Below are positions 6,151-30,892 of a stretch of 64,000 bases of DNA, one piece after another. The position numbers were made by a program, and so were the translations under genes. The notes under the pieces are model-generated. The model was not told where the DNA came from. It searched no databases and was given only the letters and a program-made list of their open reading frames with translations. The DNA comes from Mesorhizobium sp. B2-4-15 (GTDB lineage Bacteria > Pseudomonadota > Alphaproteobacteria > Rhizobiales > Rhizobiaceae). The stretch spans positions 124,001 through 188,000 of the forward strand of contig NZ_VFUZ01000006.1 of assembly GCF_006658505.1 (NCBI RefSeq), in the 5' to 3' direction. Every line of letters begins with the position of its first letter. The stretch's first letter is position 1.

Positions 6151-6195
6151 GACCGCGCATTCCCTTGGCTGACTGGGGAACTTCCCATTTGGGTT

Positions 6196-8003: not shown

Positions 8004-8050
8004 CTTGACCTCCTGAACTCTTATTTACGGTTCGGCCTCATCTGAATTCT

Positions 8051-8773: not shown

Positions 8774-9339
8774 CCGATCCTCCTGATTTGCAGTTGGCTG
8801 TGTCCGGGCACTTCGTGTTCGAGTTCATCCGGATCTGGCACCCGGTCAGATCCGATCCGACTCTCGGCGGCAATCCGAACATCATGACTGAAGGGTATGT
8901 GACCGCCGGGGTGGCTGTCGTCGTGCATTCGAATGGCAACGATCCGACGCCTTTCCGGTATCAAATAGCCGCGACATCAAGGGCTGATCCAAGCGTTCAG
9001 GACCTGACCGTGAGACGAACGAAGCCAGCATGTGTCGTGCCGGCATCAAAAGGCTGTACGGCCCCACCGTCCGGACATTGGAACGGGCACCCGGCATCGT
9101 TCGGGAGGCAGGCACCTCACGCGAAAGTTAAGAAAAAATAACAGAAGCTTTTTCGCGATTTAGGACTATATTAGCCATACTTGATATTTTCGGATGGGAG
9201 CGCCGTGGATATCATCGTGATGTCATGACCAGTGGTTGGCTGCGATTTTGGGACCACCGCGGCTCGGTTCATCACAGAGAGTAACGGGAGGCTTCAGCGG
9301 GTTTTCTCGTCGGAGCCGAGTAAGCGTTGGGGTAGTTCA
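8774..9339. other. Divergent promoter region between sugar cassette and response regulator
   Basis: About 566 bases contain no convincing gene. They separate two divergent transcripts and must hold both promoters. The stretch 9130-9185 is clearly AT-richer than its surroundings (runs of A and T around an AAGCTTTTT) and is the best place for the response-regulator promoter or an upstream binding site. I see no terminator. Confidence 0.4.
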
Positions 9340-10017
9340 ATGTATCGGATCGTCATCGCCGACGATCACGGCTTGTATCGGCGCGGCCTTCGGCTGGCAC
9401 TTACGGCTGGAATTCCAAGTGCCGAAATATTCGAGGCTGCGTGTTTCGACGCCGTGGTCAGTCTTCTCGAGGAGCAGGCATCCATCGATCTTGCGATCCT
9501 CGATTTAAATATGCCCGGACTGTTTAATCAGGAAGTTCTTGGCGACGTTCTGTCCGCCTATCCTGATACACGCTTCGCGATCGTTTCGGGAGACGATTCG
9601 CGCTCCGAGATATTGACCGCTCTTTCGATCGGACTTCACGGTTACATCGTCAAATCCCAGAGGGATGAAGAAGTCGTGATGGCCGTCAACGAGATCCTAT
9701 CGGGACGGATCTACGTGCCGGCGCTCTTGTCCCGAACGTCCGCCGGACAAAGATCCTACGCCGCGCAGCCCTCCGCGAAAAATCCGACCCGTCAGCGCGT
9801 GAGCTCGGGCAATCTCGCTAGACTGACATCGAGGCAGAAGGACGTCCTCAAGCTGATGGCGGAAGGGTATTCGAACAAGGAGATCGCCCGCAATCTGGAT
9901 ATTGCCGAAGCGACAACGAAAATCCATGCGGCTGCCATTCTGCGCGAGCTTGGGGTGCGAAACCGGACCGAAGCAGCGGTTTTGCTGCAAACCTGGCTAT
10001 CGAAAAATGTGACCTGA
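9340..10017 (+). CDS. NarL/LuxR-family response regulator
   Basis: A 225-residue two-component regulator. The receiver domain begins YRIVIADDHGLYRRG with the acidic pair in ADD, has the phospho-acceptor Asp in LAILDLNMPG near residue 53, and the Lys in YIVKSQ. The C-terminal LuxR helix-turn-helix reads LTSRQKDVLKLMAEGYSNKEIA. I placed the start at the ATG 9340, where the receiver fold begins, rather than at the GTG 108 bases upstream that would add unrelated residues. No strong ribosome site is visible. It is a natural partner for the HWE kinase encoded convergently at 10115-11863. Its position between the sugar genes suggests it controls EPS synthesis (inference). Confidence 0.85.
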   Translation: MYRIVIADDHGLYRRGLRLALTAGIPSAEIFEAACFDAVVSLLEEQASIDLAILDLNMPGLFNQEVLGDVLSAYPDTRFAIVSGDDSRSEILTALSIGLHGYIVKSQRDEEVVMAVNEILSGRIYVPALLSRTSAGQRSYAAQPSAKNPTRQRVSSGNLARLTSRQKDVLKLMAEGYSNKEIARNLDIAEATTKIHAAAILRELGVRNRTEAAVLLQTWLSKNVT

Positions 10018-11863: not shown

Positions 11864-12088
11864 GACTACAACCTTCCGTCTAGCCCGTCGAGACTAGGCC
11901 CCGACAGGGCAGCCTAATACCACTGCTGGATTGCCACGCCTTTGCCGGGGACTAGAATCAGTTGCGGAAGGGCTCATCAGGAACGCGCATTCAACGAAAG
12001 CTGCGAAAGAAACCTGACGCGGATTTCTATAACCGTGTCGAAATTCAAGCCAGAGGAGTGTGATCCCTGTCGAAAGACGGAAATCAAA

Positions 12089-12117
12089 GCAAGTAAATTT
12101 ACACGTCATTTACTTGC
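12089..12117. promoter_or_regulatory. Perfect 10-base inverted repeat, likely operator
   Basis: GCAAGTAAAT and its exact reverse complement ATTTACTTGC are separated by 9 bases. The site ends 31 bases before the LuxR-type gene at 12149 and lies in the divergent gap shared with the HWE kinase. The AT-rich arms stand out from the GC-rich surroundings. It could be an operator for the adjacent regulator (autoregulation) or a 5'-UTR hairpin. Confidence 0.6.
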
Positions 12118-12148
12118 GTCAAATGCAACAAGGGTTGGGGTAGAAGCG

Positions 12149-12826
12149 ATGACACTGATTGACAGGCGCAACGATACGGTTGCGGGTAACCAATATATTG
12201 TGTTGAGGGATACTGGGCATGTACGCTCGACACACTTCTCGGATCGATCAGACGCCAGAATTGGCGGGCCGCAGCGACGCAGTTTGGAATCCATAACCGG
12301 CATGCTTGAACGCATCGGCTGCGGCTATCTCGTGCTGGACCGCGACAAGAAAGTAATCGAATGGAACACGGCCGCTCAAGACACGCTTGAACGCCAAGGC
12401 GAAGCGGCCGATACGGCCTGCGAGCTTTCTGCCGGGCTGAGGCGGCTGGTTGCGAATGTTCCGGTGCATTTCCAGCCAGGCTCACTGTCATGGGTGGTGA
12501 TCCGCAGCAGAGGCGACAGGCCGGTGATCCTGAACGAGACGGGCGTCATCGCTCCTGACGGGACAAGCATCGTCGCATTGCTGGATCGGGAGAACACGTC
12601 GGCGGCAAACCCTCAGACATTGCAAAGAATGTTCGGGTTGACCAGCGCGGAAACGCAGCTGGCGTTGCGCCTGGCTCATGGCGACGCGCCTTTGGAGATC
12701 GCCCGCAGCTGGCACCTCAGCCGCACGACGATTCGCTCCCAGCTCGCCTCGCTGTTCGCCAAGACCGAGACAAGGCGCCAGGCGGAGTTGGTGGCGCTTC
12801 TGGGGCGCATTTCGGTCCTGCCATGA
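12149..12826 (+). CDS. LuxR-type transcriptional regulator with PAS-like sensor domain
   Basis: A 225-residue protein. The middle part resembles a PAS fold (IGCGYLVLDRDKKVIEWN near residue 55). The C-terminal ~65 residues form a LuxR-type helix-turn-helix (LTSAETQLALRLAHGD followed by HLSRTTIRSQLASLF). There is no receiver domain with a phospho-Asp, so it is not a response regulator. I chose the ATG at 12149; the open frame extends upstream without a better start and through the inverted repeat at 12089-12117. The gene is divergent from the HWE kinase and sits at the edge of the EPS blocks, so a role in EPS control is reasonable inference. Confidence 0.75.
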   Translation: MTLIDRRNDTVAGNQYIVLRDTGHVRSTHFSDRSDARIGGPQRRSLESITGMLERIGCGYLVLDRDKKVIEWNTAAQDTLERQGEAADTACELSAGLRRLVANVPVHFQPGSLSWVVIRSRGDRPVILNETGVIAPDGTSIVALLDRENTSAANPQTLQRMFGLTSAETQLALRLAHGDAPLEIARSWHLSRTTIRSQLASLFAKTETRRQAELVALLGRISVLP

Positions 12827-13417: not shown

Positions 13418-15643
13418 TCATTTGCCAACCCTCAAGAACCAATTCCACTGCTGGCCGCCGATCACGCCTGGCCTGATCGAGAGCAGGACAAACACCAAGC
13501 CAGGCAGGATCTTCAGTCGCTTGCCGATATAGATAGCCATGGCAACGCTCCAGATGCCCAGCGCAAGCGCGACACCCACGGCAGCACCAATCGGGCCGTA
13601 CATCGCGACGCCCAAGGCACAGGCTATGATGTTGGCCACCGCACCGGCAATCATGGTCGTGGCGGCGGCCCATTCGTTTCCGGTCATTGCCAAAAGATTC
13701 TGCTGAGGCCCGCACAGCGCGACAAAGATATATCCCAAGATGAGAACCCGAGCGATTGGCGTTCCCGCGTTGTAGCCCTCACCGAAATAGCTCAGGAACG
13801 GTTCGACAATCACCATCAACGGGACGGCCACCACGATGGCGCCGCCAGCAGAAAGCAAGGTGGCCCGCGCGAACAGCTGCTGCAGGCCTTTGCGGTCTCC
13901 CCTGGCATGCAGATCGGCCGCTGTTGGCGAAAACATGGTAGCGACGGCGATGCGGGAGAGCCCCACAAGCATCGCGACGTTCAACGCCAGGGCGAATATA
14001 CCCGCTTCGCGGATATGCTGGGTCCACCCCAACACCAGCACTCCGGCCCGGCTGACAAACACATCGAGACCGGTGATGAGCATGAGCGGAGGGACGGCAA
14101 ACCACCATTCCTTCGCTTCGTAACTGGGCCGGGCCTGCCGCAGGCCGGGCGGTTCAAACTTCGCCGCCGTGATGAACACCAGCCCGACCGTGATCGCGGA
14201 GCTTATCAGCACCGCCAGCATCACCTCCGGCGCATGAACGGCCCGCAATCCGGACTTTGCCATCATCGCCACCAACACCAGCAGGAGCCCATCTCGCACG
14301 ATGCGCTCCGGCAATAGCGCCGAGACGACGCCGCCAAAAGCACGTACAAGCGTAGCGCCGATAGCATAAGCGGTAATCAAGGGGACGGCCGCCATGCCAA
14401 GCATAATGCTTGTATCAAGTCCGTTTTGCGTATGATCCGAAAAAAGGAGAACCAAGGTAGCGCCCGTTATCCCGAATAGCGACGCCGCCAACAGCGATCT
14501 TTGCACCGCGAATTTGATCACCCCTCGTGCCAGATCAAGCCTGCCATTGGCTCTATAGGCAGGTACAAAACGCAACAAGGATACGTTGAAACCGAGCGTT
14601 GCCAGGTAAGCGAGGACGGACGTCCATGCCAGAACGTAGGAATAGATCCCGTAGTTGCGAGGCCCGATGAGCCGTGCAATGGCCAGCTGTGCAAGGCTGG
14701 TCAGTCCGGCACCTCCGATATAGATCAAGAGAGCGAAGACGCTCGCTCGAGCGAGCCGGGAGCCCACATCCTTATTCCGCAAAGGCGCGGCGATCGTGGG
14801 AGGAACGTCCGTGGGACGGTTCGGAGACTTTGCATAAAACCGAGTATCGAGACCTGAGGTGACACTGCTATCGAGAGAGCGTTGTCTTTGGCCTCCAGCC
14901 GTAACTCCCTTATCTGTCCGCGAAAGTGCGGAAATGATTTGTTTCTCGACCTTACAAATGCCGTTGAATTTCGATCGACCGTCGGCGTTTTCCACGGAAA
15001 TGACTTTTCGCCCGGAAATGGCGAGGAGATCATTTATAGATTCAAACACACCAAGAGAACGCATATTCACGTTCATGTCAGCTTCGAAAATTCGCTCCGC
15101 CGGCGGCTCGCGCTCCATCCGTCGCCGCAAGCGATTCTCCACGACCACAGATGGCACCACTAGCCTGACGGTGAGGTCGGCCGGCGGCGCGAGGCTGAGC
15201 GCCTTTGCGAGCGTGGCATGATCAGTGCTCCCGTTGAATGCCGCCAGCGATCCAATCGCTTGAACGTATCCTTGATCGAATATTATGATTTCGGACGATT
15301 GCTTCGCACGGCTCCAGCGACGCGAAAGGTGCAAGATATATTGCCAGATTCGAGCGCGCCATATTCGCCTTTTTGGCGGTATCAGCCGTACCAACGACAA
15401 TGAAATGAAAAGATCGTTCGGCCTTCCTCTGGAAGAAATCAATATTCGTGCGGTCGAAAGGATTGCCGATACGATTCTTGAGACGAACAAAAAAATCCCG
15501 AGATCGAAGCTTCCGGCCCTGGTGCCGGGTTTGTAGCTGAGAGCGACCTTGGCGTGATAGCCTTTCCCACGCAACTGCTCTGCGAGCGCGTGCGCAAACG
15601 TTGTTTTGCCGGATCCTGGGGACCCGAAAAATTCGATGATCAT
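13418..15643 (-). CDS. Fusion of P-loop (thymidylate-kinase-like) kinase and Wzx/MurJ-type polysaccharide flippase
   Basis: A 741-residue protein in one uninterrupted frame. Residues 1-~230 are a small P-loop kinase: Walker A GSPGSGKTTFAHAL at 7-20, a Walker-B-like IIIFDQGYV, and a lid-like RLRRRMEREPP. A polar linker follows. From about residue 295 to 720 there are 12-14 hydrophobic segments of an oligosaccharide flippase (ARASVFALLIYIGGAGLTS, ARLIGPRNYGIYS, SRIAVATMFSPTAAD). Such flippases move lipid-linked repeat units across the inner membrane. The kinase substrate is unknown. The ribosome site before the ATG at 15643 is weak. It lies 76 bases downstream of the ExoP-like gene. A double fusion of this kind is unusual in my knowledge of the family. 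Confidence 0.8.
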   Translation of the reverse strand: MIIEFFGSPGSGKTTFAHALAEQLRGKGYHAKVALSYKPGTRAGSFDLGIFLFVSRIVSAILSTARILISSRGRPNDLFISLSLVRLIPPKRRIWRARIWQYILHLSRRWSRAKQSSEIIIFDQGYVQAIGSLAAFNGSTDHATLAKALSLAPPADLTVRLVVPSVVVENRLRRRMEREPPAERIFEADMNVNMRSLGVFESINDLLAISGRKVISVENADGRSKFNGICKVEKQIISALSRTDKGVTAGGQRQRSLDSSVTSGLDTRFYAKSPNRPTDVPPTIAAPLRNKDVGSRLARASVFALLIYIGGAGLTSLAQLAIARLIGPRNYGIYSYVLAWTSVLAYLATLGFNVSLLRFVPAYRANGRLDLARGVIKFAVQRSLLAASLFGITGATLVLLFSDHTQNGLDTSIMLGMAAVPLITAYAIGATLVRAFGGVVSALLPERIVRDGLLLVLVAMMAKSGLRAVHAPEVMLAVLISSAITVGLVFITAAKFEPPGLRQARPSYEAKEWWFAVPPLMLITGLDVFVSRAGVLVLGWTQHIREAGIFALALNVAMLVGLSRIAVATMFSPTAADLHARGDRKGLQQLFARATLLSAGGAIVVAVPLMVIVEPFLSYFGEGYNAGTPIARVLILGYIFVALCGPQQNLLAMTGNEWAAATTMIAGAVANIIACALGVAMYGPIGAAVGVALALGIWSVAMAIYIGKRLKILPGLVFVLLSIRPGVIGGQQWNWFLRVGK

Positions 15644-15719: not shown

Positions 15720-17936
15720 TCAAACCCTCGCCAGCAGGAGGTCGGCGCTGTCTCCAAGCCTGTAGCCAGCATGCTTCTTGAGATTCACCTGGGTGAGCAC
15801 ACTTCCCACGGGAACGCTGACGGACCCACCGGCTCGCAGTGATTCCAGAACGCCGCGGGCAATGCCGCGCCGCGTCCTGGCCCAGCGGACGGCAAAAAGC
15901 ACTGCATCCGCCCAGCGCTTCAGAAGCCTGGTTTCGGGCCCTCCGAGGCCCAGGGGTCCGTTTATGATGACGACGTCGTAAACCGAGAGCAACTCATCGG
16001 TAAACTGGGACCTGTCCACCGTGGACAGAAGCGTCAGCAGGTCATCCGACGGTGCTGGAGCGGCCATGAGATCGATGCCGATTTCTGGCATTCTCGTGAC
16101 CGCGTCCTGCAGCACACAGCGGTCACTCACATAGTCCCCAAAGGAGTTGCGAGCCCTGACGGTGCTGAATTCGCCCCGAAACTCGTTCGTGAGCCGCACG
16201 TCCTTGCGGTCAAGGTCGAGGAAAAGCACCCTTCCTCCCAGCCGTGTTGCCGCAAGCGCCAAACTCCATGCCAACTCGGTCTTGCCATCGTCCTGGAGAC
16301 TGGACGTTATGAGGATGATGTGTGGCGGATGCCCCCTCCCCTGAGTTGGCGCAGCGGTGACAAGAACGGACGTCACGGCACGACTGAACGGCGAGGTCAG
16401 CTGGCTCAGAACCAGATGCTGCAACTGTTTCGCGTGAAGTCCCGAAACCTTGGGAAGCAGCCCCACGCACGGAATCCCAAGCTCGGCTTCGGCCTCGGCT
16501 TCACTGCGCAAGGTCTGATTGAAGGCGTTGCGGACCATGACGAAAATCGCGCCCATTAGGCCGAACACGATCATGCCGGGCGGGACCAGGAAAACTGCCG
16601 GGAGCGTCTTCGGAGTTGACGGTGGCCATGCCGTCGAAAGGATCGCTACACCGGGTGAAGGAGCGGCGATGTGCTGTATCAAATCCTGTCGCCGGCCAAG
16701 GCGCTCGTTGTATCGCTGCGTTACGATGGCCACCTGAGGCTCGAGGGCACGCAAGCCGGAAAGCTGGCTCGCGGTGTCGGCCACCGCCGTGTCGAGCACC
16801 CTTTCGTGTTCTTCCAGCGCCGCGACCTGGGCGCGGTAGACTTTTGCCTCGGCTGCGATGCGCGCGATGTCCTGTTCCATCTCACGGTTGATCGCATTCC
16901 CCAGATCCTCGTCCGCACCAGCGCCCGGCTGGCGAGCCACCAGGTCGGCCAGCACCGGCGATCCGATTTCTTCAGCGACCGCCGAAACGGGCGCGCCCGC
17001 CTTCCGCAGATCCTCGATACGTTGAAGACGCGCTTCCGAGGCGGAGAGATCGGCTTTCGACAGGGAAATCTGTCGGCTGAGTTCCGCTCTCTCATTGGCC
17101 GCATTGTTTGCCGCACTTTGATCGACGGCGCCGTGGGTCAGCCGATACGTCTCCAGACGGTTGGTTGCGTCGACCAGATCGCTTTGCACTTGCGGCAGGC
17201 CGGCGACCAGCGATTGCAGTTCGACCTGATCCGATGCACGTCGTTTCTGTATGAGGTCGTCAATATAGACCTGAGCGAATGTGTTCGCGACAAGCGCAGC
17301 ACGAGCCGGATTGGCATCGGTGAAGCCGATGGTGATGACCCGCGACCGCAGCTCTTGTCCGACCCTCATTCCGTTCCGAAGCGCCTTGAGCTCGGCCGCG
17401 TCCGCCTCTTCCGGACTTCCTGCCGCCGGCTTGCCCTGTGGCCAGACCCGGTTCAGGAGATCGCCCACGAACGAGCCCGCAGTGTGCTGATCGGCGGGAA
17501 CGAGGCTGGAGCCACTTTTTCCGGCAGCGTTGGCTGCCTCCGCTTTGCGCAGCGACGCCAGAACTCGGCGCAAATGGGCTTGCGAGGAGAGCATCGTCAG
17601 ATGGTCATCGATGCTCGAATCCAGCAAATCCTGAACGGACCCTGCGCTGCCCGAGGTAGCACCGCCGGTTGGAGCGTCGATGATTACCTGCGTCGCCGCC
17701 TCATACAGCACCGGACGAGCAAGACCGGCGAGACCAGCAAGGACGCCACCCAGAACGGCGATGGCAAGCAAGAACCATTTTCTCGTCGCCAAGGTGACGA
17801 CAAGCTGACGGAAAGGAGACGACGGCTCCAGGGGCTCGCTTAGCGGTTGCCTCATCCGCGGATTTGTCTCAAGCGCAGCGACGGCCATTTGCGTGGTGCG
17901 CGGACGTTTGGCGCGGCCAGCTACGGAACCTTCCAT
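15720..17936 (-). CDS. ExoP/Wzc-like polysaccharide co-polymerase with BY-kinase-like domain
   Basis: A 738-residue inner-membrane protein that would set chain length with the ExoF-like exporter and the polymerase. There are two membrane spans (near residues 50-70 and 452-470) around a Wzz domain and long coiled coil, then a cytoplasmic BY-kinase-like ATPase. The Walker A region is SSLQDDGKTELAWS near residue 549 (GKT retained, the upstream Gly replaced) and Walker A' is VLFLDLDRKDVR. The C-terminal tail has one Tyr (HAGYRLGDSA) and no Tyr cluster, so tail autophosphorylation of the usual kind looks unlikely. The ATG at 17936 is two bases from the AsnB stop. Confidence 0.85.
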   Translation of the reverse strand: MEGSVAGRAKRPRTTQMAVAALETNPRMRQPLSEPLEPSSPFRQLVVTLATRKWFLLAIAVLGGVLAGLAGLARPVLYEAATQVIIDAPTGGATSGSAGSVQDLLDSSIDDHLTMLSSQAHLRRVLASLRKAEAANAAGKSGSSLVPADQHTAGSFVGDLLNRVWPQGKPAAGSPEEADAAELKALRNGMRVGQELRSRVITIGFTDANPARAALVANTFAQVYIDDLIQKRRASDQVELQSLVAGLPQVQSDLVDATNRLETYRLTHGAVDQSAANNAANERAELSRQISLSKADLSASEARLQRIEDLRKAGAPVSAVAEEIGSPVLADLVARQPGAGADEDLGNAINREMEQDIARIAAEAKVYRAQVAALEEHERVLDTAVADTASQLSGLRALEPQVAIVTQRYNERLGRRQDLIQHIAAPSPGVAILSTAWPPSTPKTLPAVFLVPPGMIVFGLMGAIFVMVRNAFNQTLRSEAEAEAELGIPCVGLLPKVSGLHAKQLQHLVLSQLTSPFSRAVTSVLVTAAPTQGRGHPPHIILITSSLQDDGKTELAWSLALAATRLGGRVLFLDLDRKDVRLTNEFRGEFSTVRARNSFGDYVSDRCVLQDAVTRMPEIGIDLMAAPAPSDDLLTLLSTVDRSQFTDELLSVYDVVIINGPLGLGGPETRLLKRWADAVLFAVRWARTRRGIARGVLESLRAGGSVSVPVGSVLTQVNLKKHAGYRLGDSADLLLARV

Positions 17937-17937
17937 C

Positions 17938-19935
17938 TCAACCCCCTGTCAGTTCGATATGGTGAGAGAGGCGCGTTGCCGGCGCCGGTGGTTGCGTGGC
18001 TTCGTTGCGCCACGCCTGGAACATGAGCAGAGGCCACAAATCGCGGGAATGATCTTGTTTTCCCTGCAGGTGATCGCGCCAACAGGCGCCGACCTTTGCA
18101 AAGTCGACAACTCCGTCTTCCGAGAGGCGTATTGTGGCGATGATATCCGTTGCCCAGGCGCGCAGGGGCCCTTTCAGCCAAGCTCCGACTGGAACGTCGA
18201 AACCTTGCTTGGGCCGATCGACCAGTCGCCGCGGGACATAACGATCAAGGAGCTGGCGAAGTATCCATTTACCCTTGCCATTCCGAACCTTGGCATTGGT
18301 CGGCAGTCGCCAGGCGTATTCGATGACGCGATGGTCCAGGATCGGGCACCGCCCCTCGAGGCTGTTGGCCATGGTGGCGCGATCGAGCTTCACCAGGATA
18401 TCGCCGGGCAGATAGCCGGTCATGTCGTCGAACAGCAGACGGGATAGCAGGTCGTCGAGCTCTGCTGCACGGGCCTTGGTTGCCGGCGGCCTGTGATGAA
18501 CAAGGTTGTTGGCCGAGGACTCGGTCAGCCGCTGAAGCAGTTCGTCCTCATTTGCAGCCGCGAGCAGGCGGGCGAGGCGATTCAGGCGGTCACTGCGCAA
18601 TCCGTGCCGCGCGTTCGCCGAAAGCGGCAGCCTGCCGAAGATATCTTTCCGGGAGGCCTGGGCCAGCAATCCGGCCCCAGCCGCCAACATCCGGCGAAGT
18701 GGGGATGGAAGCTCATGCTGTCTTCTGAGGCGGGCCGCCAGGAAGTGCCGGGAATAGCCCGCAAAGCACTCGTCACCACCGTCGCCCGACAGCGCTACGG
18801 TCACGTGTTGCCGGGCGAGGCGCGACACCAGCAGTGTCGGTATCTGTGACTCATCGGCGAACGGCTCGTCCCAGATCCGTGGCAGTTCCGGAATGACCTC
18901 ACGCGCGGCGGCCGGTGAAAGGTGAAGTTCGGTGTGGTCGGTGCCCAGATGTCGTGCAACCGCTGCCGCATGAGGGGCTTCGTCGAACCCGCTCTCACCG
19001 AACGCGATGGTGAAGGTGCGGACGGGCTTCCGCGACTGTGCCTGCATCAGGGCGACGACCGTCGAGCTGTCGATACCACCCGACAGAAAGGCGCCAAGCG
19101 GCACGTCGGCGACCATTCGTTCGCCGACGGCAAGGCGAAGCAGACGATCGAGCTCGGCCGTAAGTTCCTCGTCACTGCCGGTGAGCGGTTCCCGCAGCGC
19201 CGTGCTGGCGACATCGGCCAGCGACCACCAGCGTCGAATGCGACGCGCAAGCGAGCCTGCACCGCGGGTATTGGCGAAATCCGCCGCCGTCACGGAAAGG
19301 ACGGAACCGGGTGGCAGCTTGAACACGCCCTGCCAGATGCAACTGTCATCCGGCACCCACCCTTTCGAAAGCATTGTCGCCGCGGCGTCGACATCGAGTT
19401 CCGGGGCGAACCCGGGGAAACAAGTGATCGCCTTCAGCTCCGAGGCAAAGACGAGCGCCTCGCGTGTCGAGGCGACGTAGAGCGGCTTCTTGCCCATTCG
19501 GTCGCGGGCGAGGTGAAGGATACGGTTCTTCAGATCCCACAGCGCGAAAGCGAACATGCCGGCGAAGCGCGCGAGCGCGGCGTCGAGACCCCAGCTTTCA
19601 ATCGCGCACAGCATGATTTCGGTGTCGCTGGTGCCACGGAAATGGTGGCCCGCCCCTTCCAGCTCGCGGCGCAGATCGCGAAAATTGTATATCTCGCCAT
19701 TGAAGGTAATGACGTACCGGCCGCTGGCGGAGTGCATCGGCTGCCGGCCCGCCTCCGACAAGTCGACGATGGCCAGACGCCGGTGGCCGAAGGCGATCCC
19801 GGCTTCGCGGCTCATCCAAAATGCCTCGCCATCAGGTCCACGATGACGAAGGGCCGTCATCATCGGCCCGATCGCCCGTAGCGCGTTCGTATCGGCCGCG
19901 TCGGGCGCCAAGAGAATTCCAGCGATCCCGCACAT
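17938..19935 (-). CDS. asnB: Glutamine-hydrolysing asparagine synthase-like amidotransferase
   Basis: A 665-residue class II amidotransferase. The mature N-terminal nucleophile is Cys2 in MCGIAGILLAP, which fixes the start at 19935 (AGGAG 9-10 bases upstream). Glutaminase motifs HRRLAIVDLS and NGEIYNF are present. The synthetase domain has the PPi loop LSGGIDSSTV near residue 282 and SGDGGDECFAGY. It uses Gln ammonia and ATP to amidate a carboxylate. Homologues inside EPS or exosortase loci often modify something other than free aspartate, for example a uronic acid or a carrier-bound acid. It lies between the polymerase and the co-polymerase genes with 1-2 base gaps, so it is part of the EPS operon. 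Confidence 0.9.
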   Translation of the reverse strand: MCGIAGILLAPDAADTNALRAIGPMMTALRHRGPDGEAFWMSREAGIAFGHRRLAIVDLSEAGRQPMHSASGRYVITFNGEIYNFRDLRRELEGAGHHFRGTSDTEIMLCAIESWGLDAALARFAGMFAFALWDLKNRILHLARDRMGKKPLYVASTREALVFASELKAITCFPGFAPELDVDAAATMLSKGWVPDDSCIWQGVFKLPPGSVLSVTAADFANTRGAGSLARRIRRWWSLADVASTALREPLTGSDEELTAELDRLLRLAVGERMVADVPLGAFLSGGIDSSTVVALMQAQSRKPVRTFTIAFGESGFDEAPHAAAVARHLGTDHTELHLSPAAAREVIPELPRIWDEPFADESQIPTLLVSRLARQHVTVALSGDGGDECFAGYSRHFLAARLRRQHELPSPLRRMLAAGAGLLAQASRKDIFGRLPLSANARHGLRSDRLNRLARLLAAANEDELLQRLTESSANNLVHHRPPATKARAAELDDLLSRLLFDDMTGYLPGDILVKLDRATMANSLEGRCPILDHRVIEYAWRLPTNAKVRNGKGKWILRQLLDRYVPRRLVDRPKQGFDVPVGAWLKGPLRAWATDIIATIRLSEDGVVDFAKVGACWRDHLQGKQDHSRDLWPLLMFQAWRNEATQPPAPATRLSHHIELTGG

Positions 19936-19936
19936 C

Positions 19937-21196
19937 CTAATATCTCCTCTGGCGAACGATGGCGGGGATCGCTTGAGGCGTCCCCGCGACAAGGCAGAGC
20001 GTCACGGAGAACCACACGATCGGATGGCGGATAATCAGGTGCGGAGCACTGAACACAACGATCGATACCATGAGCGCCACGAGGGCATCCAATCTCGCAC
20101 GCCAGGCGGACAAGGCGGCGGAGCCGAGGATCCACAAGAGCGCCATGACTGAAATCAAGCCACCCTGGGTATAGAGATCGAGGATCGTGCTATGGGCCTC
20201 GAAAGGCCGAGGCAGAAACTGCTGATTGGTGATGGGGGGACGTTCAAGGTGAGGCCCGGGGCCGAGGCCGAGCGACCCAGATCTTGCTCCCTTGTCCAGT
20301 GCCTCGTCCCAAAGGTAGAGGCGAAGCTCGGCGGTTTCCGCGGTCGCTTGCCCGCCCTTGTCCTTGGTAAGGCTCTTGGCGAAGTTTTCGGCGCTGGCGG
20401 CGTCGCCGAGGGCGTAAGGCGCGACGGAGATCGCCAACGGAACGAACGCAACCGTGAACAGGAGGGCAATTTGCCGTGAAAGGCTGACCTTGCCGCCATC
20501 GATTGCAAGCCAAGCCCGAATCCGCAGCCCGAGAAGGATCAGGCAAGCCAGGATTGTCGTGTAGAGATAGGTATCGCTCTTTGTCAGCCTTCCGACGTAG
20601 AAGGTGAGGATCAGGCTGGTTAACCCAAGGCACCTCCCCCACGGATTGCGGGTGGTTACGGCAAGATGCAGGGCCAGCGGACCAAGGAGAGCGCAATAGA
20701 GCGCAAGCTGGTTCGGATTGTCGGACCAACCGCTGAAGCGGTCCCAATACCAGGGATTGACGCCAGATTGATGGATCCAGCCCCACCCAAGCCCCAGTTG
20801 AACAACAAAGCATGCATTCGCGACGGCAATGATCCACCAGCCCGTGTTGCGTAGACGGCGACCGGCGTCGGGCTCCGCCGCGGCCAGGCAGGTGATGAAG
20901 ACCAACAGCACATACGCCATCGTGTCATGCATCAACGGAGCGATGAACAGGACGGTCGTCAGATAGCCGACGATCGTCCCAACACTCAGGGCAAGCGTCA
21001 GGATCAGCCAGAAACGTGCAAGCTGGGCCAGGGCCGGCGTGAACTCCAATCGGCCGCCCGCGAGAACCCGCACGATCGACAGCAATATCCAAAGCGCGAG
21101 GAACAATTCGCTGTAGCCGAACGGCAGGCCTGGGATGCTGAGTCGGACCGCATAGGACATTGCGATGCCGCAGGCCAGGAGCGCATCACGGATCAT
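19937..21196 (-). CDS. Wzy/ExoQ-like O-antigen polymerase or ligase
   Basis: A 419-residue polytopic membrane protein with about 10-12 hydrophobic segments and a large extracytoplasmic loop before the last spans. In that loop is the O-antigen ligase/polymerase-type stretch GLGPGPHLERP then PFEAHSTILDLYTQGG, with the His-rich part matching the Wzy_C pattern (G-x-G ... H-N/S). It probably joins repeat units at the outer face of the inner membrane. I set the start at the ATG 21196, which overlaps the glycosyltransferase stop by 4 bases (ATGA); an open frame continues upstream without need. It precedes asnB by one base. Confidence 0.82.
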   Translation of the reverse strand: MIRDALLACGIAMSYAVRLSIPGLPFGYSELFLALWILLSIVRVLAGGRLEFTPALAQLARFWLILTLALSVGTIVGYLTTVLFIAPLMHDTMAYVLLVFITCLAAAEPDAGRRLRNTGWWIIAVANACFVVQLGLGWGWIHQSGVNPWYWDRFSGWSDNPNQLALYCALLGPLALHLAVTTRNPWGRCLGLTSLILTFYVGRLTKSDTYLYTTILACLILLGLRIRAWLAIDGGKVSLSRQIALLFTVAFVPLAISVAPYALGDAASAENFAKSLTKDKGGQATAETAELRLYLWDEALDKGARSGSLGLGPGPHLERPPITNQQFLPRPFEAHSTILDLYTQGGLISVMALLWILGSAALSAWRARLDALVALMVSIVVFSAPHLIIRHPIVWFSVTLCLVAGTPQAIPAIVRQRRY

Positions 21197-22416
21197 TGCC
21201 GCGCCTCCCACAGTCGGGGGCTCCGCGCGCTCTCTTCCATCAGGATCGCGGGGGCTGATCGAGCTAGACTGCCCCGGTACTTTGCCCCGAGGACGGTCTT
21301 GTACAGCTCGCAATACTGATCGACGACCCACGACAGCGAAAAGCGCTCCCGGACAAGTCCGACGGAACGGCCGCCCATGATTTTTCCACGGGCGCGATCG
21401 GACAGGATCTCGATTATCCTGGATGCGAAGCCATCCACATCGCGCGGCGTGACGAGATAACCGTTCCAGCCATCTTCAACCACGTCATTGCAGCCGGGCA
21501 TCCGCGAGGCGACGATCGGCAATCCGGACAATCCCGCCTCCAGCAGGACACGCGGAATACCCTCGCGATATTGCGTCGGAAACGCGAACAGATCGGCCAT
21601 GCCAAGGAGGGCCGGAACATCCTGTCGCGATCCCAAGGCAATGACGTGAGGCGCATATCGATCGATATCGGCCTTGTTGACCGCGAACGGTCCCTCCGAG
21701 TCCTGCGGACCGACAAGGACGAAACGCGCATCGGGTCTTTCGGAAAGGACACGGGGAACCGCCTTGAGGAGGGTCGGAATCCCCTTCTGGCGGGTCAGGC
21801 GGCCGACAAAGATTATGATTTCGGCCGACTGAAGCCCAAGGCTCTCGCGCATCGTCGTGGCCGAAGGGCCACGATACCTTGCTGTCGAGAATGCCGTCGG
21901 GTCGATGCCAGAACTGCGGACCAGCCGCGCTTTGTCGTGACCAACCAGCCGATAGCGTTCGAAGAAGGCCTGATCGTCGCGATTCTGGAAGACGGTCATG
22001 GCTGTCCATAAGGATGCCAGTCCCTGAAGGCCGCAAAAGATCGGACGCAAGGCCAGAGCCCGCGGTTCGAGGGACGAGAATGTCCAACCAAGGCCATTGA
22101 TGGTGCGGACAACCGGCACCTGCCCGCGCACGGCCAAAGGGGTCAGAAGATTGGGCTTGGTGTCGAAACTTTGAACGATGTCCGGACGCAGTTCCGACAT
22201 CAATTTGCGGACCGCGCCAAGAGCGCCCCATTCCCCGCCGCCACTGGTAAAGCGGTCAAATCCCAATCGGCGATGCGCAATGCCATGAAGAGAGAAGGCG
22301 TTGCCCACATCGCTCGATACGGCGGTGACCCGGAAGCCCCTTTCGCGCAGCGCCAGCAGGAACGGAATTCTAAGACGATGATCCTCGCCTCCAACACAGA
22401 CCAGGTGGGGGTTCAT
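21193..22416 (-). CDS. Family 4-type glycosyltransferase (GT-B fold)
   Basis: A 407-residue cytoplasmic or membrane-associated glycosyltransferase. The N-terminal half has VCVGGEDHRLR and QSFDTKPNLLTPLA. The C-terminal half contains IIIFVGRLTRQKGIPTLL, the nucleotide-sugar motif EGIPRVLLEAGLSGLPIV and DGWNGYLV, all typical of group 1 (GT4) transferases and close to the PglA/WbpX-type subset. The start at 22416 has GGAGGGG just upstream. It is the first gene of a minus-strand block (transferase, polymerase, AsnB, co-polymerase, flippase). Notably only one ordinary glycosyltransferase is visible, so other transferases needed for the repeat unit must be outside this window or the repeat is short. 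Confidence 0.88.
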   Translation of the reverse strand: MNPHLVCVGGEDHRLRIPFLLALRERGFRVTAVSSDVGNAFSLHGIAHRRLGFDRFTSGGGEWGALGAVRKLMSELRPDIVQSFDTKPNLLTPLAVRGQVPVVRTINGLGWTFSSLEPRALALRPIFCGLQGLASLWTAMTVFQNRDDQAFFERYRLVGHDKARLVRSSGIDPTAFSTARYRGPSATTMRESLGLQSAEIIIFVGRLTRQKGIPTLLKAVPRVLSERPDARFVLVGPQDSEGPFAVNKADIDRYAPHVIALGSRQDVPALLGMADLFAFPTQYREGIPRVLLEAGLSGLPIVASRMPGCNDVVEDGWNGYLVTPRDVDGFASRIIEILSDRARGKIMGGRSVGLVRERFSLSWVVDQYCELYKTVLGAKYRGSLARSAPAILMEESARSPRLWEARQ

Positions 22417-22808
22417 CCTGCCCCTCCAGGACGCCGGCGGTATCCCGGTCGCGCGAAATGGCTGGCTCTAGAATCTGCTCTCATGGTCCGGCTTCATTGC
22501 CCCTATGCGCACGACACCCAAATCCACGCTAGGAGCAGGCCTTCCCGCTGTCCTCGTCTGTTTGAATGAAGCAGGGCTTCAATGATGCGGCGATGCACCT
22601 GAACCCCTTCATGTCGGATCGGCGAGTTCGGCCGGAATCATTCGTTCTAACGATGCCACGGCCAAGATGGTCGCGTACGACACTGCAAAGCCGGTCAGCA
22701 AAAAAGGGGGTCGTGTTGGAAGCGTTCGAGCGCACGCGTTCTTCAGAAGGCCTGCCTTTGCGCGCCTTGCAGTCCGTCCCGAGGCCGGCGAAGGAGCGGG
22801 ATGTCGCG
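22417..22808. other. Divergent promoter region upstream of the A-T-TE gene
   Basis: About 392 bases separate the minus-strand glycosyltransferase block from the plus-strand adenylation gene. The frame of the latter stays open back to 22566, so a longer N-terminus is possible, but the upstream residues look non-homologous. I see no clear hexamers, repeats or hairpins. Confidence 0.35.
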
Positions 22809-25487
22809 ATGACGCGCGACAATGGTGCTCAAGACGGTTTCACATGGAAGCAGGCATCCACCCGCCCTCTGGACATGGACGGACCGGCAAGCACTGCCTT
22901 CCAAACGATGTGCGATGACTTCTCCGAAAAATCGGCGTTCTGGCACCTCGAGAGAATTGTCGGGAAATATCCGGACAAGATCGCGATCAGCGACGGCTCG
23001 ACATCCCTCAGCTTCCTGGAATTGTTGAACGCGGTCCAAAACCTGGCAGGTGCGATTGCCGGTTCAGTTCCAATGGGTGCGGCAGTCGGGCTTCTGATCG
23101 GGAATACCCTCTGGTACCCGGTGGCCATGCTTGCCGCCATGCGTGCGGGCAGGCCCGCCGTGCCGCTAAACCCCCGGGATCCATTTCAGCGCCTCGCGGC
23201 GATTGCCGCCAGCGCGGGACTGGCTGCAATCGTAAGGCCAGGGCCGGGCAAGCCGGCAGGCTGGCCTGATGCCTCGTCCCTGAAATGGATCGATGCGGGA
23301 AGCTGCATGGCCGCAACGCCGGACGGCATTCTACCGGCGCTGCCACCAGACGTGCCGGTCGATTCGCCGGCGATCGTCCTGTACACGTCAGGCAGCACCG
23401 GAGCCCCGAAAGGCGTCGTGAACAGCCAGCGGGCGATCCTCCAGCGGGTGCAGCAATATGTCGATGCTTGCCACATCGGCCCCGACGATGCGTTCATGCC
23501 GTTGACCGGCCCGGCGACGATCGCGGGCTGCCGCGAGATGATGACCCCGATGCTGTGCGGCGCCACATTGTATCTTTTGGACATTGAGAGTGCCGGCATC
23601 CGCGCTGCGCGCGACAATTTCCAAAAATGGCGGGTGACGATCGCCTATCTCGTGCCGGCGCTGCTGCGTGTGTTGATGACCGATTCAGCGCCGGACGCAT
23701 TCTCGTCACTGCGGGTCGTGCGGGTCGGCGGAGAAAAAGTGTTGTGGTCCGACATCGACCGGCTTCGCGACAATGTCCCTGAGTCCTGCCTTGTCCAGAT
23801 CAGCTATTCGTCCACGGAAACGACCGGCACGCAGTGGTTCCTGCCGAGGGATTACCCGGAGTGCGGCGCGACGGTCCCGGTCGGCTTCGTCCTTCCCGGC
23901 ATCGAATACACCGTGGTGGATGAGAATGGATACGAGGTCGCCCCCGGCGACGAAGGGGAGTTGCTGATCAGGGGCAACTACACCACGCTCGGCTATTGGG
24001 CGGACGGGGGACATGTCCCTCTTCGTGCAAGCTCCGCCAATCCCCGGCTTCGGATCTTCGCAACCGGCGATCTGGTCAAGGTCGACGGCACCGGAATGAT
24101 GTGGATCGTCGGACGAAAGGGACGCCAGATAAAGATCAACGGAAGACGGGTCGAGCCTGCCGAACTGGAACTCGTCCTGCGCCGGGCGCCCCAAGTGAGT
24201 GATGCCGTCGCCGTGGTGACGGACGCGAACGAACTGGTGGCCTTTGTCGTTCCCGCGAGAACTGGCGCAAGCGAAATCATACCCGAATTGCGGGACTTGA
24301 TCAGGACAGCCCTGCCGCCGGCAGTTCATCCAACGCGACTGCACAGTATTGCCGAGATACCGCAGCTCAAGGGCGGCAAGGTCGACACTGTCAAGTTGCG
24401 GGAACTGGATCGCGCACTGAACGCGCAAGACGCCCAGAGCCCGCCAGACGCCCGGCAGGCGGTGAACCCGCTCGATTTCGAAGGCGTGGCAGCGGCCGTA
24501 TGGGAGAGGATACTTCCCGGCAAGAAGGCGGCTGGCAGCCATTGGGACGATGCCGGCGGCGATTCACTGAAGCTGCTGCAATTCGTCATGGAACTTGAGA
24601 CGGCTCTGGGACGGGAACTCAACTTGGATGCCTTCACCGTCGGAATGAGTTTTGCCGACGTCGTCAGGGCAGCGTCCGCAGGGCAAGATACAAGCGGCGT
24701 GCTCGTCGAGGCGTCCGACCCCAGGCCGCTTTTGTTTATTGTGCCGGGATCGATCGGCTACGGGCCAAGCCTGGCGGCTTTCGGTGTCGAGATGAGCGAT
24801 GTCGCCAGGGTTGTCGCCATTCGCTATGGCGACCTCAACGATCTACTGAAGGGGCATGGCACCATACCGCGGATGGTGGATGCGGTTGTCGAGCAGATCA
24901 GCCAGGTCCAGCCTGATGGCGACGTGAAGCTGATCGGCTATTCGCTTGGCGGCGGCGTCGCGTTCGAGGTTGCCGCCAAACTTGTTGCAGCGGGTCGATC
25001 GGTCACGTTCCTGGGAATCCTCGACACCAATATCGGGCCTGGGCAGCACGATTACCGTGAAACTCTCGCTCGCACCGTCCAGCGCATCCGTTCGCATAGA
25101 GTGACGGCGGATCGCATGATGTTACGGGCTCTCGCGAAAGCATTTGCCAGATTTGGCGCTGAAGCCCTGCTCGCCAGGGGCATCGACTGGCTGAAATGGA
25201 GGGCTTTCGCCAGAGTGCGGTTCATTTTGCGCCTTGAGCTTGAGGAAATCCTGCGGATGCGCGCATTTGGGCAATGGCTGGCGCAACCGAAGACCGCGTT
25301 GCCGATTACCGCCACCCTGTTTCGATGCAGGCGTACAGGGGTTCCGACGGATCTTGGCTGGAGTGCCTTTTTTGCCGATCTGAGCATAGTCCCGATCCTC
25401 GGCGGACACCTCGATATGCTCATCGAACCGTATCTGAGCCACAACCGTCCTTTGATAGAAAGAGCCTTTCTGGTGAGCGGCGCATAG
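22809..25487 (+). CDS. Single-module NRPS-like protein: adenylation, carrier, thioesterase
   Basis: About 892 residues. The adenylation domain has the A3 loop YTSGSTGAPKGVV (near residue 192), A5 SYSSTETTG, A7 FATGDLVKVDG (near 418), A8 GRKGRQIKINGRRVEPAE and the A10 Lys in GGKVDTVKL. A phosphopantetheine carrier follows (DDAGGDSLKLLQF, Ser near 584). A type I thioesterase closes the chain, with GYSLGGG (Ser near 710), an Asp in GILDTN and His in GGHLD near 864. There is no condensation domain, so it activates and releases or transfers one acyl unit. The ATG at 22809 follows AAGGAG at about 12 bases. It sits divergently next to the EPS operon and near asnB, suggesting an amino-acyl decoration (inference). 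Confidence 0.87.
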   Translation: MTRDNGAQDGFTWKQASTRPLDMDGPASTAFQTMCDDFSEKSAFWHLERIVGKYPDKIAISDGSTSLSFLELLNAVQNLAGAIAGSVPMGAAVGLLIGNTLWYPVAMLAAMRAGRPAVPLNPRDPFQRLAAIAASAGLAAIVRPGPGKPAGWPDASSLKWIDAGSCMAATPDGILPALPPDVPVDSPAIVLYTSGSTGAPKGVVNSQRAILQRVQQYVDACHIGPDDAFMPLTGPATIAGCREMMTPMLCGATLYLLDIESAGIRAARDNFQKWRVTIAYLVPALLRVLMTDSAPDAFSSLRVVRVGGEKVLWSDIDRLRDNVPESCLVQISYSSTETTGTQWFLPRDYPECGATVPVGFVLPGIEYTVVDENGYEVAPGDEGELLIRGNYTTLGYWADGGHVPLRASSANPRLRIFATGDLVKVDGTGMMWIVGRKGRQIKINGRRVEPAELELVLRRAPQVSDAVAVVTDANELVAFVVPARTGASEIIPELRDLIRTALPPAVHPTRLHSIAEIPQLKGGKVDTVKLRELDRALNAQDAQSPPDARQAVNPLDFEGVAAAVWERILPGKKAAGSHWDDAGGDSLKLLQFVMELETALGRELNLDAFTVGMSFADVVRAASAGQDTSGVLVEASDPRPLLFIVPGSIGYGPSLAAFGVEMSDVARVVAIRYGDLNDLLKGHGTIPRMVDAVVEQISQVQPDGDVKLIGYSLGGGVAFEVAAKLVAAGRSVTFLGILDTNIGPGQHDYRETLARTVQRIRSHRVTADRMMLRALAKAFARFGAEALLARGIDWLKWRAFARVRFILRLELEEILRMRAFGQWLAQPKTALPITATLFRCRRTGVPTDLGWSAFFADLSIVPILGGHLDMLIEPYLSHNRPLIERAFLVSGA

Positions 25488-25799
25488 CGCGTGGACGACC
25501 GCCATCCGCACTCTCCGAAGCGGCTGGAATGAACCAGCGCGATCCTACGCTTTCTGCAGTCCACAACAAAATCCAGCAGTGCCGCCGAGGCAGGAACAGT
25601 CCAGTCCTGCCTTGCCACGCTGGAAATATCCCTGAACAATCAACAAGCCCGGAACCAGGAGCAACGTCCCATCGCGTGGACCTTTCCTCGCCGTGATCAA
25701 TGATTCTATCAACGAGCGTCCGTATTTGATTTGGTTCTAATATACCCTTTCCAATAGGCAGGCGTGGGGCACCTACCGAATCAGACGAAGGATATTTGC
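25488..25799. other. Non-coding gap upstream of the RTX gene
   Basis: About 312 bases hold no gene I can support. The distal part (25690-25760) becomes AT-richer, with a TAATAT at 25738-25743 that could be a -10 element but lacks an obvious -35. I see no terminator for the preceding gene. Confidence 0.35.
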
Positions 25800-27323
25800 A
25801 TGACAACCCTCCATTACGCCTCGGGTGGATCGGCCTCCGAGGTCGCAAACGCCGGATTCAATCTAGTCGACGTTTCATCCGTGGACGAACTCAACGCCCT
25901 GCCGGCGGGCACGAAAGGTCTGGTCTGGCTCGATGAAGCCAATGGGGCAACCTCGTCCTTCATCCAGAAAGTCACGCCCTTTATCGGCAATCCGAAAGCG
26001 TTCGGATTCTTCCTTGTCGATGAGCCGGACCCCACCGGCAAATGGGGAACCTATGCCACCGCCGCGAACCTGAAGGCGGAATCCGACTGGATCCACACCA
26101 ACGTGCCGGGCGCCAAGACCTTCATCACCATGATGAACATGGGGTCTTCCGCAAATCCCGATTTCTCAAACACCTATAATCCCGCCAACACACATATCGA
26201 CTATTACGGGCTGGACCCGTATCCGGTGCGCACCGGGACAAGCACGGTCGACTACAACATGATCGACAGGACCGTGGCCGCGGCTGTCGCTTCGGGGGTC
26301 CCGCTCAACCAGATCGTTCCAGTTTATCAGACGTTCGGGGGCGGCAGCTACACGACCGATACGGGCGGCCAATATGTCCTTCCGACCGCCGCCCAGGAAC
26401 AGACCATGCTGGACCACTGGTCCAAGCTGGTTCCGTCGCCCGCCTTCGACTATGCCTATGCATGGGGTTCCCAGCAGGGCGACACGGCACTTGGAAACTC
26501 GCCGGCGTTGCAAGCCCTCTTCCTTCAACACAACCAAGGCACCGCAAGCGTGCCTCCGGCCAGCGACACGACTTCGTCCGGCACCACTGTGCCCTCGACC
26601 AGCGATACGACTTCGTCCATCACCCCACCTTCGACCAGCACCACCCCTCCGATCAGCACCGCGCCTTCGACCGGCGATCACGTTTTCTACGGCACCGGCC
26701 GCGCGGATGTACTTCACGGCACCACCGGCGCCGACACGATGATCGGTGGCGGCTACAACGACACCTATTATGTCAACAACCCTGGCGACAAGGTGGTGGA
26801 ACTGAAGGGCGCAGGCAACGATACCGTGCTGGCATCGGTGAGCTATGCACTGTCGGCCGGCTCGGAAATCGAGCATCTCGCCACCACGAGCCGGGCCGGC
26901 ACCACTGCCATCAACCTCACGGGAAACGAGTTCTCGCAGACCATACAGGGTAATGCCGGCAACAACGTCATCAATGGCGGCGGCGGGCAAGATGTGCTGA
27001 CAGGAAATGGAGGCAAGGACGTCTTCGTCTTCAATTCCGCCCTCAAGGCAGGCAATGTCGACAAGATCACCGACTTCAATGTGACGCAGGACAAGATCCA
27101 GCTCGACCACACGGTGTTTGCCGGGCTTCAGGTCGGCGCCCTTCCCGCTGATGCGTTTCACACCGGCAGGGGTGCGCATGCCAGTACCGACCACATTATC
27201 TACAACAGTTCGACCGGAGCCCTCTCCTTCGACAGCGATGGTGCCGGCAGCGCTCATCAGATCCAGTTTGCCGCTCTTTCTCCGCATCTGTCGTTGACGG
27301 CATCCTCGTTCGTCGTGACGTGA
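25800..27323 (+). CDS. Secreted RTX protein with glycoside-hydrolase-like N-terminal domain
   Basis: A 507-residue protein with no N-terminal signal peptide. Residues 1-~245 look like a (beta/alpha)8 glycosidase: FFLVDEPDP with an acidic pair, DYYGLDPYPV, VPVYQTFGGG and YAYAWGSQQGD on successive strands. A Ser/Thr/Pro repeat linker spans about 250-297. From about 299 onward are calcium-binding nonapeptides (GTGRADVLHG, GADTMIGGGYNDTYY, GNNVINGGGGQDVLTGNG) and the C-terminal FVFNSALKAGNVDKITDF module seen in type I secreted proteins. GAAGGA precedes the ATG at 25800. It is probably exported by the ABC transporter at 1-1270 and trims or releases the EPS, in the manner of ExsH/PlyA glycanases (inference). 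Confidence 0.85.
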   Translation: MTTLHYASGGSASEVANAGFNLVDVSSVDELNALPAGTKGLVWLDEANGATSSFIQKVTPFIGNPKAFGFFLVDEPDPTGKWGTYATAANLKAESDWIHTNVPGAKTFITMMNMGSSANPDFSNTYNPANTHIDYYGLDPYPVRTGTSTVDYNMIDRTVAAAVASGVPLNQIVPVYQTFGGGSYTTDTGGQYVLPTAAQEQTMLDHWSKLVPSPAFDYAYAWGSQQGDTALGNSPALQALFLQHNQGTASVPPASDTTSSGTTVPSTSDTTSSITPPSTSTTPPISTAPSTGDHVFYGTGRADVLHGTTGADTMIGGGYNDTYYVNNPGDKVVELKGAGNDTVLASVSYALSAGSEIEHLATTSRAGTTAINLTGNEFSQTIQGNAGNNVINGGGGQDVLTGNGGKDVFVFNSALKAGNVDKITDFNVTQDKIQLDHTVFAGLQVGALPADAFHTGRGAHASTDHIIYNSSTGALSFDSDGAGSAHQIQFAALSPHLSLTASSFVVT

Positions 27324-30834: not shown

Positions 30835-30892
30835 CGATGATCTCCTCATCGGACCGCAAAATGAGAAACAGCTCGGACAGCTAGCGCCACGA

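Follow-up and report, generated by a model that had tools for sequence, protein, structure and literature searches.

An adenylation-carrier-thioesterase protein linked to a conserved exopolysaccharide locus in Mesorhizobium: a candidate route for acylation of a sugar amine

The window, a stretch of 64,000 nucleotides from Mesorhizobium sp. B2-4-15 (contig NZ_VFUZ01000006.1, positions 124,001 to 188,000), contains a locus for the assembly of an exopolysaccharide (EPS; Table 1). Beside its operon lies a gene for a single-chain protein with adenylation (A), carrier (T) and thioesterase (TE) domains, hereafter A-T-TE, which is transcribed divergently from the operon of the GT4-family glycosyltransferase and an AsnB-type amidotransferase, with 149 bases between A-T-TE and GT4 if translation starts at 22566. 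An earlier prediction, made from the letters of the window, had singled out A-T-TE and AsnB as a possible system for an amino-acid or amide substituent, together with an amino-sugar cassette at 5146-8773. We found the cassette to consist of a LegB-like dehydratase, a priming transferase, a DegT aminotransferase and a nucleotidyltransferase. Most likely, A-T-TE N-acylates an amino sugar of the EPS by the logic of a non-ribosomal peptide synthetase (NRPS).

Table 1. Features of the EPS locus and its surroundings in the window
Feature	Position	Strand	Basis or remark
Polysaccharide export protein (Poly_export)	2626..3885	-	domain scans
Predicted secreted beta-propeller	3872..5149	-	signal-like N-terminus; best fold match oligogalacturonate lyase 3pe7
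LegB-like NDP-sugar 4,6-dehydratase	5146..6150	-	TIGR04180 408 bits, cut-off 475
Priming sugar phosphotransferase (Bac_transf)	6196..6870	-	domain scans
DegT-family sugar aminotransferase, likely source of free sugar amine	6867..8003	-	domain scans
Sugar nucleotidyltransferase	8051..8773	-	domain scans
LuxR-type response regulator	9232..10017	+	domain scans
HWE histidine kinase	10115..11863	-	domain scans
LuxR-like protein	11942..12826	+	read by eye; no Pfam match
P-loop kinase-like domain fused to Wzx-like flippase	13418..15643	-	weak family scores
ExoP/Wzc-like chain-length protein	15720..17936	-	domain scans
Class II amidotransferase, AsnB/WbpS kind	17938..19935	-	TIGR03108 562.2 bits, cut-off 816.9
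Hydrophobic protein, putative Wzy polymerase	19937..21196	-	role suggested by position and make-up
GT4-family glycosyltransferase	21193..22416	-	used as locus marker
A-T-TE protein	22566..25487	+	973 residues from first ATG; Pfam domains, catalytic residues kept, AlphaFold2 model
Adenylation domain of A-T-TE	22950..24380	+	residues 129-605; pocket 319 I, 320 A, 323 R, 361 Y, 386 R, 605 K
Carrier (PP-binding) domain of A-T-TE	24477..24674	+	holds Ser667
Thioesterase-type domain of A-T-TE	24723..25484	+	triad Ser793, Asp820, His948
RTX-repeat protein, putative EPS glycanase	25764..27323	+	glycosidase-like N-terminal part by eye

The A-T-TE reading frame matched the Pfam families AMP-binding (residues 129-478, 207 bits), AMP-binding_C and Thioesterase (60 bits), and its carrier match to PP-binding scored 23.3 bits against a cut-off of 20.8. 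No condensation domain was matched by Pfam across the 973 residues. The protein has the A and carrier domains of an NRPS module, with their catalytic residues, and lacks the condensation domain, as predicted originally for 22809-25487. Lys605 of the A domain, the carrier Ser and the TE triad are all present. We aligned 167 sequences (the window protein, 46 translations from loci and 120 listed of 965 database proteins, some of them representing the same gene); the carrier Ser, the TE Ser and the TE Asp were kept in all of them and the TE His in 166. Alignments to homologues began at residues 14-48 for close Mesorhizobium proteins and at about 77-102 for more distant ones, and the true start should therefore lie somewhere between 22566 and 22809, the latter being one of several possible starts. 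The AlphaFold2 model (mean pLDDT 73) had EntF and other NRPS chains as its best structural matches. The A-PCP-TE structure of EntF (5ja1) aligned over 746 residues between 94 and 969, with a root-mean-square deviation of 15 because the domains are differently placed. The closest named relatives were Mesorhizobium, and strain B2-4-17 of this genus has a protein 96% identical to A-T-TE; the 6.09 Mb genome of the strain itself holds one full-length copy.

The binding pocket of the A domain was numbered by motif alignment and not from a ligand-bound structure. HMMER aligned the Asp of the LgrA motif to Ile319, and residues 319, 320, 323, 361, 386 and 605 are those that we take to be equivalent to positions 235, 236, 239, 278, 299 and 517 of GrsA. 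At these positions all 167 aligned homologues have Ile, Ala, Arg, Tyr, Arg and Lys. The Asp at position 235, which binds the amine in A domains for alpha-amino acids, is thus replaced by Ile throughout, and on this ground we rejected an ordinary amino acid as the donor; the amino-acid substituent originally envisaged finds no support in the pocket. With no amine-binding Asp and, judging from the motif positions, two basic side chains facing the pocket, the enzyme probably takes a charged acid that has no alpha-amino group. The two Arg residues suggest a second negative charge, as in a dicarboxylic, hydroxy- or phospho-acid. Reading the specificity from the pocket residues was one of the checks suggested originally. 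A relative with 38% identity (G329) retains the Ile, the Ala and the first Arg and has Lys at 299; in the two A domains of G359, at 30% identity, the Arg is not retained.

Co-occurrence with the EPS locus, the other check suggested originally, was searched for in 146 Mesorhizobium genomes with A-T-TE at an E-value of 1e-100 and GT4, as the locus marker, at 1e-80. A-T-TE was found in 56 genomes and GT4 in 63, and every one of the 56 also had GT4 (Fisher p 5e-33, uncorrected for kinship). The two genes shared a contig in 52 of the 56, at 1.4-34.2 kb from each other, and were on different contigs in four. GT4 occurred alone in seven genomes, in three of them at only 46-51% identity. Across 397 genomes of the order, 14 matched A-T-TE at an E-value of 1e-60. 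Twelve of these did so at 49% identity or more, and they were the same 12 genomes that had GT4 at 55% or more (Fisher p 2e-19, also uncorrected for kinship), with both identity limits chosen after the lists had been viewed. The remaining two, G329 (38%) and G359 (31%), had no match to the GT4 marker, and five other genomes of the order had GT4 at 47-54% and no A-T-TE. The linkage of A-T-TE to the EPS locus is beyond chance.

A scan of named genomes yielded 42 homologue loci. In the stretches fetched, an AsnB-type gene was near A-T-TE in 39 of them, and 37 had one or more EPS core genes. The AsnB was of the window type (at least 55% identity) at 17 loci and of a second type (at least 60%) at 27, five loci having both. 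AsnB was not found at L015, L016 and L031, nor an EPS core gene at L016, L022, L026, L031 and L038; L015, L026 and L031 are cut by contig ends, L038 lies on a plasmid, and L022 ends in a Poly_export match whose coverage falls slightly short of the limit. In seven loci from three other family groups (G371, G294, G207, G227, G263, G236 and G299), A-T-TE is surrounded by most of the genes of the cassette and of EPS assembly; at G299 another epimerase replaces LegB and the propeller gene was not found. In G236 and G294, A-T-TE is on the same strand as the GT4 and AsnB-type genes. In G329, the gene for the 38% relative (L077) comes just downstream of one for a polysaccharide deacetylase; the EPS locus around it also holds genes of the GH16, GT4 and O-antigen-ligase types, and the 39.8 kb that were fetched from its 65.9 kb contig showed no AsnB. 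The connection of A-T-TE, AsnB and the cassette with EPS, as first proposed, thus holds for one EPS system in four family groups.

Five homologous loci that have core genes in common with the window locus do not contain A-T-TE. Four belong to the order set (G108, G216, G285 and G344) and one to Mesorhizobium (G429); the fifth order genome with GT4 only, G009, is fragmentary and was left out of the comparison. All five encode a FemAB-type protein above the TIGR03019 cut-off together with a polysaccharide deacetylase, which scored above the TIGR03006 cut-off in G216 and G285 and below it in G108, and was recognised by BLAST alone in G344 and G429. TIGR03019 was matched above its cut-off in only 5 of the 397 order genomes (G011, G108, G216, G285 and G344) and 1 of the 146 Mesorhizobium genomes (G429), and A-T-TE was found in none of these six. 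FemAB and A-T-TE did not occur together in any of 115 fetched sequences (overlapping ones counted), and the window genome gave no FemAB match to TIGR03019 at an E-value of 1e-30. AsnB was not seen in the stretch viewed of four of the five FemAB loci; G108 has one at 47% identity. On a GT4 tree of 34 rows, the A-T-TE and FemAB types were split by well supported branches (100/99). A single change between them sufficed when rows with neither gene were set aside, and five changes were counted for all three labels; the rows with neither were G418, G458, G495 and G521 on the A-T-TE side and G514 and G515 on the FemAB side (19.9 and 15.5 kb read), and G535 was labelled by its genome, as its A-T-TE lies elsewhere. 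Because the sister loci hold FemAB and a deacetylase instead of A-T-TE, acylation of a sugar amine is indicated. This part of the original proposal is supported; an ordinary amino acid as the acyl group is not.

The first residues of AsnB are Met-Cys-Gly, with Cys2 as the nucleophile typical of class II enzymes, and both a glutaminase and an Asn-synthase domain were matched, in agreement with the class II amidotransferase predicted at 17938-19935. Its best family match was TIGR03108, with a score below the cut-off. Three strong and two weak, partial Asn_synthase matches were found in the genome, one of the strong ones being the neighbour of A-T-TE. The earlier view that EPS assembly has no use for such an enzyme finds no support. 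According to PMC7468200, Porphyromonas WbpS, an AsnB-type enzyme close to Pseudomonas WbpS and E. coli O121 WbqG in the TIGR03108 family, makes a uronamide, as do these relatives. Like WbpS and WbqG, AsnB combines a class II amidotransferase with an Asn-synthase domain in a polysaccharide locus, and by analogy its predicted task is to amidate a carboxyl group on the same polysaccharide. Genes for UDP-glucose dehydrogenase close to the loci of G294 and G227 speak in favour, since a uronic acid would need such an enzyme.

We estimate a probability of about 0.55 that A-T-TE, as part of a conserved EPS locus, loads a non-alpha-amino acyl group on its own carrier and likely transfers it to a sugar amine of the EPS, with AsnB amidating a carboxyl. 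The proposal draws on the tight EPS linkage in several families and from FemAB and the deacetylase in sister loci. From what was seen directly (the domain make-up, catalytic residues, pocket, EPS linkage and FemAB exchange), we infer the remaining steps, including the acyl group, the acceptor and the transfer, as follows. The nucleotidyltransferase, LegB-like dehydratase and DegT would produce an NDP-4-amino-6-deoxy sugar, which the priming transferase would place on undecaprenyl phosphate. The A domain would adenylate the acid, the carrier would hold it as a thioester, and the TE Ser would take the acyl group from the carrier and pass it to the sugar amine rather than to water. The second sugar, attached by GT4, would probably be a uronic acid, and AsnB would amidate its carboxyl in the manner of WbpS and WbqG; flipping, polymerisation and export of the chain would follow through Wzx, Wzy and ExoP. 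Apart from the priming enzyme, GT4 is the sole glycosyltransferase that the scan of the locus proteins revealed, which makes a short repeat unit likely. We give roughly even odds to the wider proposal that a free-standing NRPS module was recruited as a polysaccharide N-acyltransferase, in which a charged non-amino acid is held as a carrier thioester and passed by the TE to an amino sugar linked to a nucleotide or a lipid, a route that would have displaced that of FemAB and deacetylase throughout a whole lineage of alphaproteobacterial EPS loci.

Several observations weigh against this assignment. A TE can simply hydrolyse its acyl group. The exchange of A-T-TE for FemAB is one event and not repeated evidence, because it required a single change on the GT4 tree; independent repeats were looked for on the 34 rows and not found. 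DegT is present in both locus types, and the amine that it makes is therefore not necessarily the one on which FemAB and A-T-TE act. Four Mesorhizobium genomes (G418, G458, G521 and G495) keep the EPS locus and AsnB with neither A-T-TE (E-value 1e-100) nor FemAB, which makes A-T-TE dispensable for that locus. A 72% identical A-T-TE (L016:10097-12787) lies amid transport, pyruvate-dehydrogenase-like and other catabolic genes. It is one clear case of a homologue without EPS neighbours, the observation that the original prediction had named as counting against itself; in its genome, G535, a different contig carries GT4, a Wzy-like gene, AsnB, ExoP and Wzx. Moreover, A-T-TE was 24.8-34.2 kb from GT4 in 35 of the 52 Mesorhizobium genomes with both on one contig. 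At the loci read, such a distant A-T-TE heads a module of NadE-like, second AsnB (AsnB2), acyl ligase, acyl carrier protein (ACP) and PrmC-like genes on the far side of the EPS locus, and this module could be its real partner.

The acyl group may come from the NadE/AsnB2 module or be processed by it. A requirement for it in this strain was rejected, because the window genome gave one weak partial match to NadE2 and its other two AsnB-type proteins were 28-30% like AsnB2. In G236, G227 and G263 the module is found elsewhere, with a stand-alone TE. As a six-gene set (A-T-TE or a stand-alone TE, NadE-like protein, second AsnB, TIGR03098-like ligase, ACP and PrmC-like methyltransferase) it recurs inside and outside EPS loci, at L080, L082 and L075 in Mesorhizobium and at L087, L088 and L089 in other families. 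At L090 (G207:C1:548796-551108), a second, stop-interrupted A-T-TE copy adjoins the module.

The acceptor of the acyl group might be something other than an amine: the EPS could be acylated on a hydroxyl as an ester, or the TE could release the free acid or hand the acyl group to another protein. TE domains also form esters and hydrolyse, and the stand-alone TE of the NadE/AsnB2 module, 50% identical to that of A-T-TE, stands beside a ligase and an ACP that are separate proteins, which suggests that such TEs may also work with other carriers. We consider such an acceptor unlikely, since a protein of the amide-forming FemAB family takes the place of A-T-TE in sister loci and the window locus proteins scanned include neither a separate N-acetyltransferase nor any other N-acyltransferase for the DegT amine. 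Somewhat less probable still is a small-molecule synthase of the ralfuranone or atromentin kind, which would join two keto acids into a diffusible product co-regulated with the EPS and not built into it. Such synthases presumably have the same A-T-TE order with no condensation domain and no Asp235, and the L016 homologue outside any EPS locus would fit them. The window enzyme differs in its EPS context and in a pocket whose Arg pair suits a charged and not an aryl substrate, and the EPS linkage in several families, the same-strand arrangement in G236 and G294 and the FemAB of sister loci also disfavour a diffusible product.

In a further variant, which we regard as the least probable of the three, A-T-TE and AsnB would form one pathway, with a dicarboxylic acid loaded on the carrier, its free carboxyl amidated by AsnB and the carbamoyl-acyl group passed to the sugar. 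The two pocket Arg residues would suit a second carboxylate, both genes occur together in 39 of the 42 loci, and AsnB went unseen in most FemAB loci. Nevertheless, AsnB is kept in the four Mesorhizobium loci that have no A-T-TE and is present in the FemAB locus of G108, no AsnB accompanies the A-T-TE of G329 in the part fetched, and the TIGR03108 kin of AsnB amidate uronic acids. N-acylation of the EPS amino sugar, with a separate amidation by AsnB, remains our preferred reading.

Among the other genes of the locus, the kinase-like domain (residues 1-250) of the fusion at 13418-15643 matched only P-loop proteins among the 60 matches listed for its profile against solved structures. In G294 and G371 the kinase and Wzx are encoded separately; a stand-alone kinase, 26-27% identical to the fused domain, is found beside the second A-T-TE in several Mesorhizobium. 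The putative Wzy had no Pfam or NCBIfam match. The propeller protein had no Pfam match, and its profile search gave no solved relative by sequence. A fold search placed oligogalacturonate lyase first, followed by generic propellers, a weak match with a TM-score below 0.6. The propeller is highly conserved, and a likeness to oligogalacturonate lyase would suit a polymer containing uronate. Homologues of the regulators between 9232 and 12826 occur at the Mesorhizobium and G371 loci. The RTX-repeat protein neighbours many of the loci, often with type I secretion genes close by, and likely remodels the EPS. The reading frame at 28942-30849 (minus strand) is an ordinary xylose-isomerase-like barrel fused to an HPPD-like domain, which we take to be the make-up of dehydroshikimate dehydratase.

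With EntF, the terminal NRPS module, A-T-TE shares the A, carrier and TE folds; unlike EntF, it has no condensation domain and no Asp235, and no peptide partner module was seen in the locus. A chemical likeness is offered by Porphyromonas. The pair of VimE, a putative deacetylase, and VimA, a TIGR03019 match, is proposed in PMC7468200 to expose a sugar amine and load Ser or Gly on it; one sugar has both an acylated amine and a uronamide made by an AsnB-type enzyme of the TIGR03108 kin. TIGR03019 kin of VimA and a deacetylase are what we found in the sister loci of the window locus. The proposed acyl transferrer of Porphyromonas is FemAB-related and uses Ser or Gly, whereas here it would be A-T-TE, with a pocket unlike those for alpha-amino acids. 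In Caulobacter, the Fem-like acyltransferase HfsK and the deacetylase HfsH shape the holdfast (PMC5362036). Two reports on Vibrio cholerae O1 (PMC12208996, PMC3441752) describe RfbL/WbeL as activating 2,4-dihydroxybutanoate for N-acylation of perosamine; in RfbL/RfbK (WbeL), an AMP-forming ligase puts the hydroxy acid, putatively, onto coenzyme A or a carrier, and a 4-amino-6-deoxy surface sugar is N-acylated. RfbL is a functional precedent, as it activates a hydroxy acid for sugar N-acylation. Its ligase and carrier are separate proteins, whereas A-T-TE fuses activation, carriage and release by a TE in one chain.

The EPS loci of the XrtA/PEP-CTERM system have amidotransferase, acyl ligase, FemAB and deacetylase families (TIGR03108, TIGR03098, TIGR03019 and TIGR03006) in common with the loci studied here; in variant Mesorhizobium loci these include a TIGR03098-like ligase, which scored below the cut-off, next to an ACP. 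Two asparagine synthetase genes are described for the EPS clusters of Zoogloea and Aquincola (PMC9012009). The window locus differs in an AsnB below the TIGR03108 cut-off and in A-T-TE, which was not among the components met in descriptions of that system. We rejected its membership, as no exosortase was found among 19 window proteins (Pfam) or 13 (NCBIfam), the rest of the genome not being searched, and the genome has no FemAB match at the threshold given above. AsnB has precedent, and A-T-TE is the new element; no description of A-T-TE in an EPS locus was found in the open-access literature searched, judged by titles and the beginnings of abstracts.

If the proposed function is correct, thiotemplate chemistry would reach from secondary metabolites to surface polysaccharides, and bacteria would gain a new way of decorating their outer coat. 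It would also explain an orphan NRPS-like gene of Mesorhizobium, Bradyrhizobium, Tardiphaga, Kaistia and Bosea, whose products are named in databases as "AMP-binding protein" or "non-ribosomal peptide synthetase", and would assign a testable chemical role to the sets of FemAB, AsnB and deacetylase genes in EPS loci. Attachment of root-nodule bacteria, or their recognition by the plant, could be affected by the acyl group.

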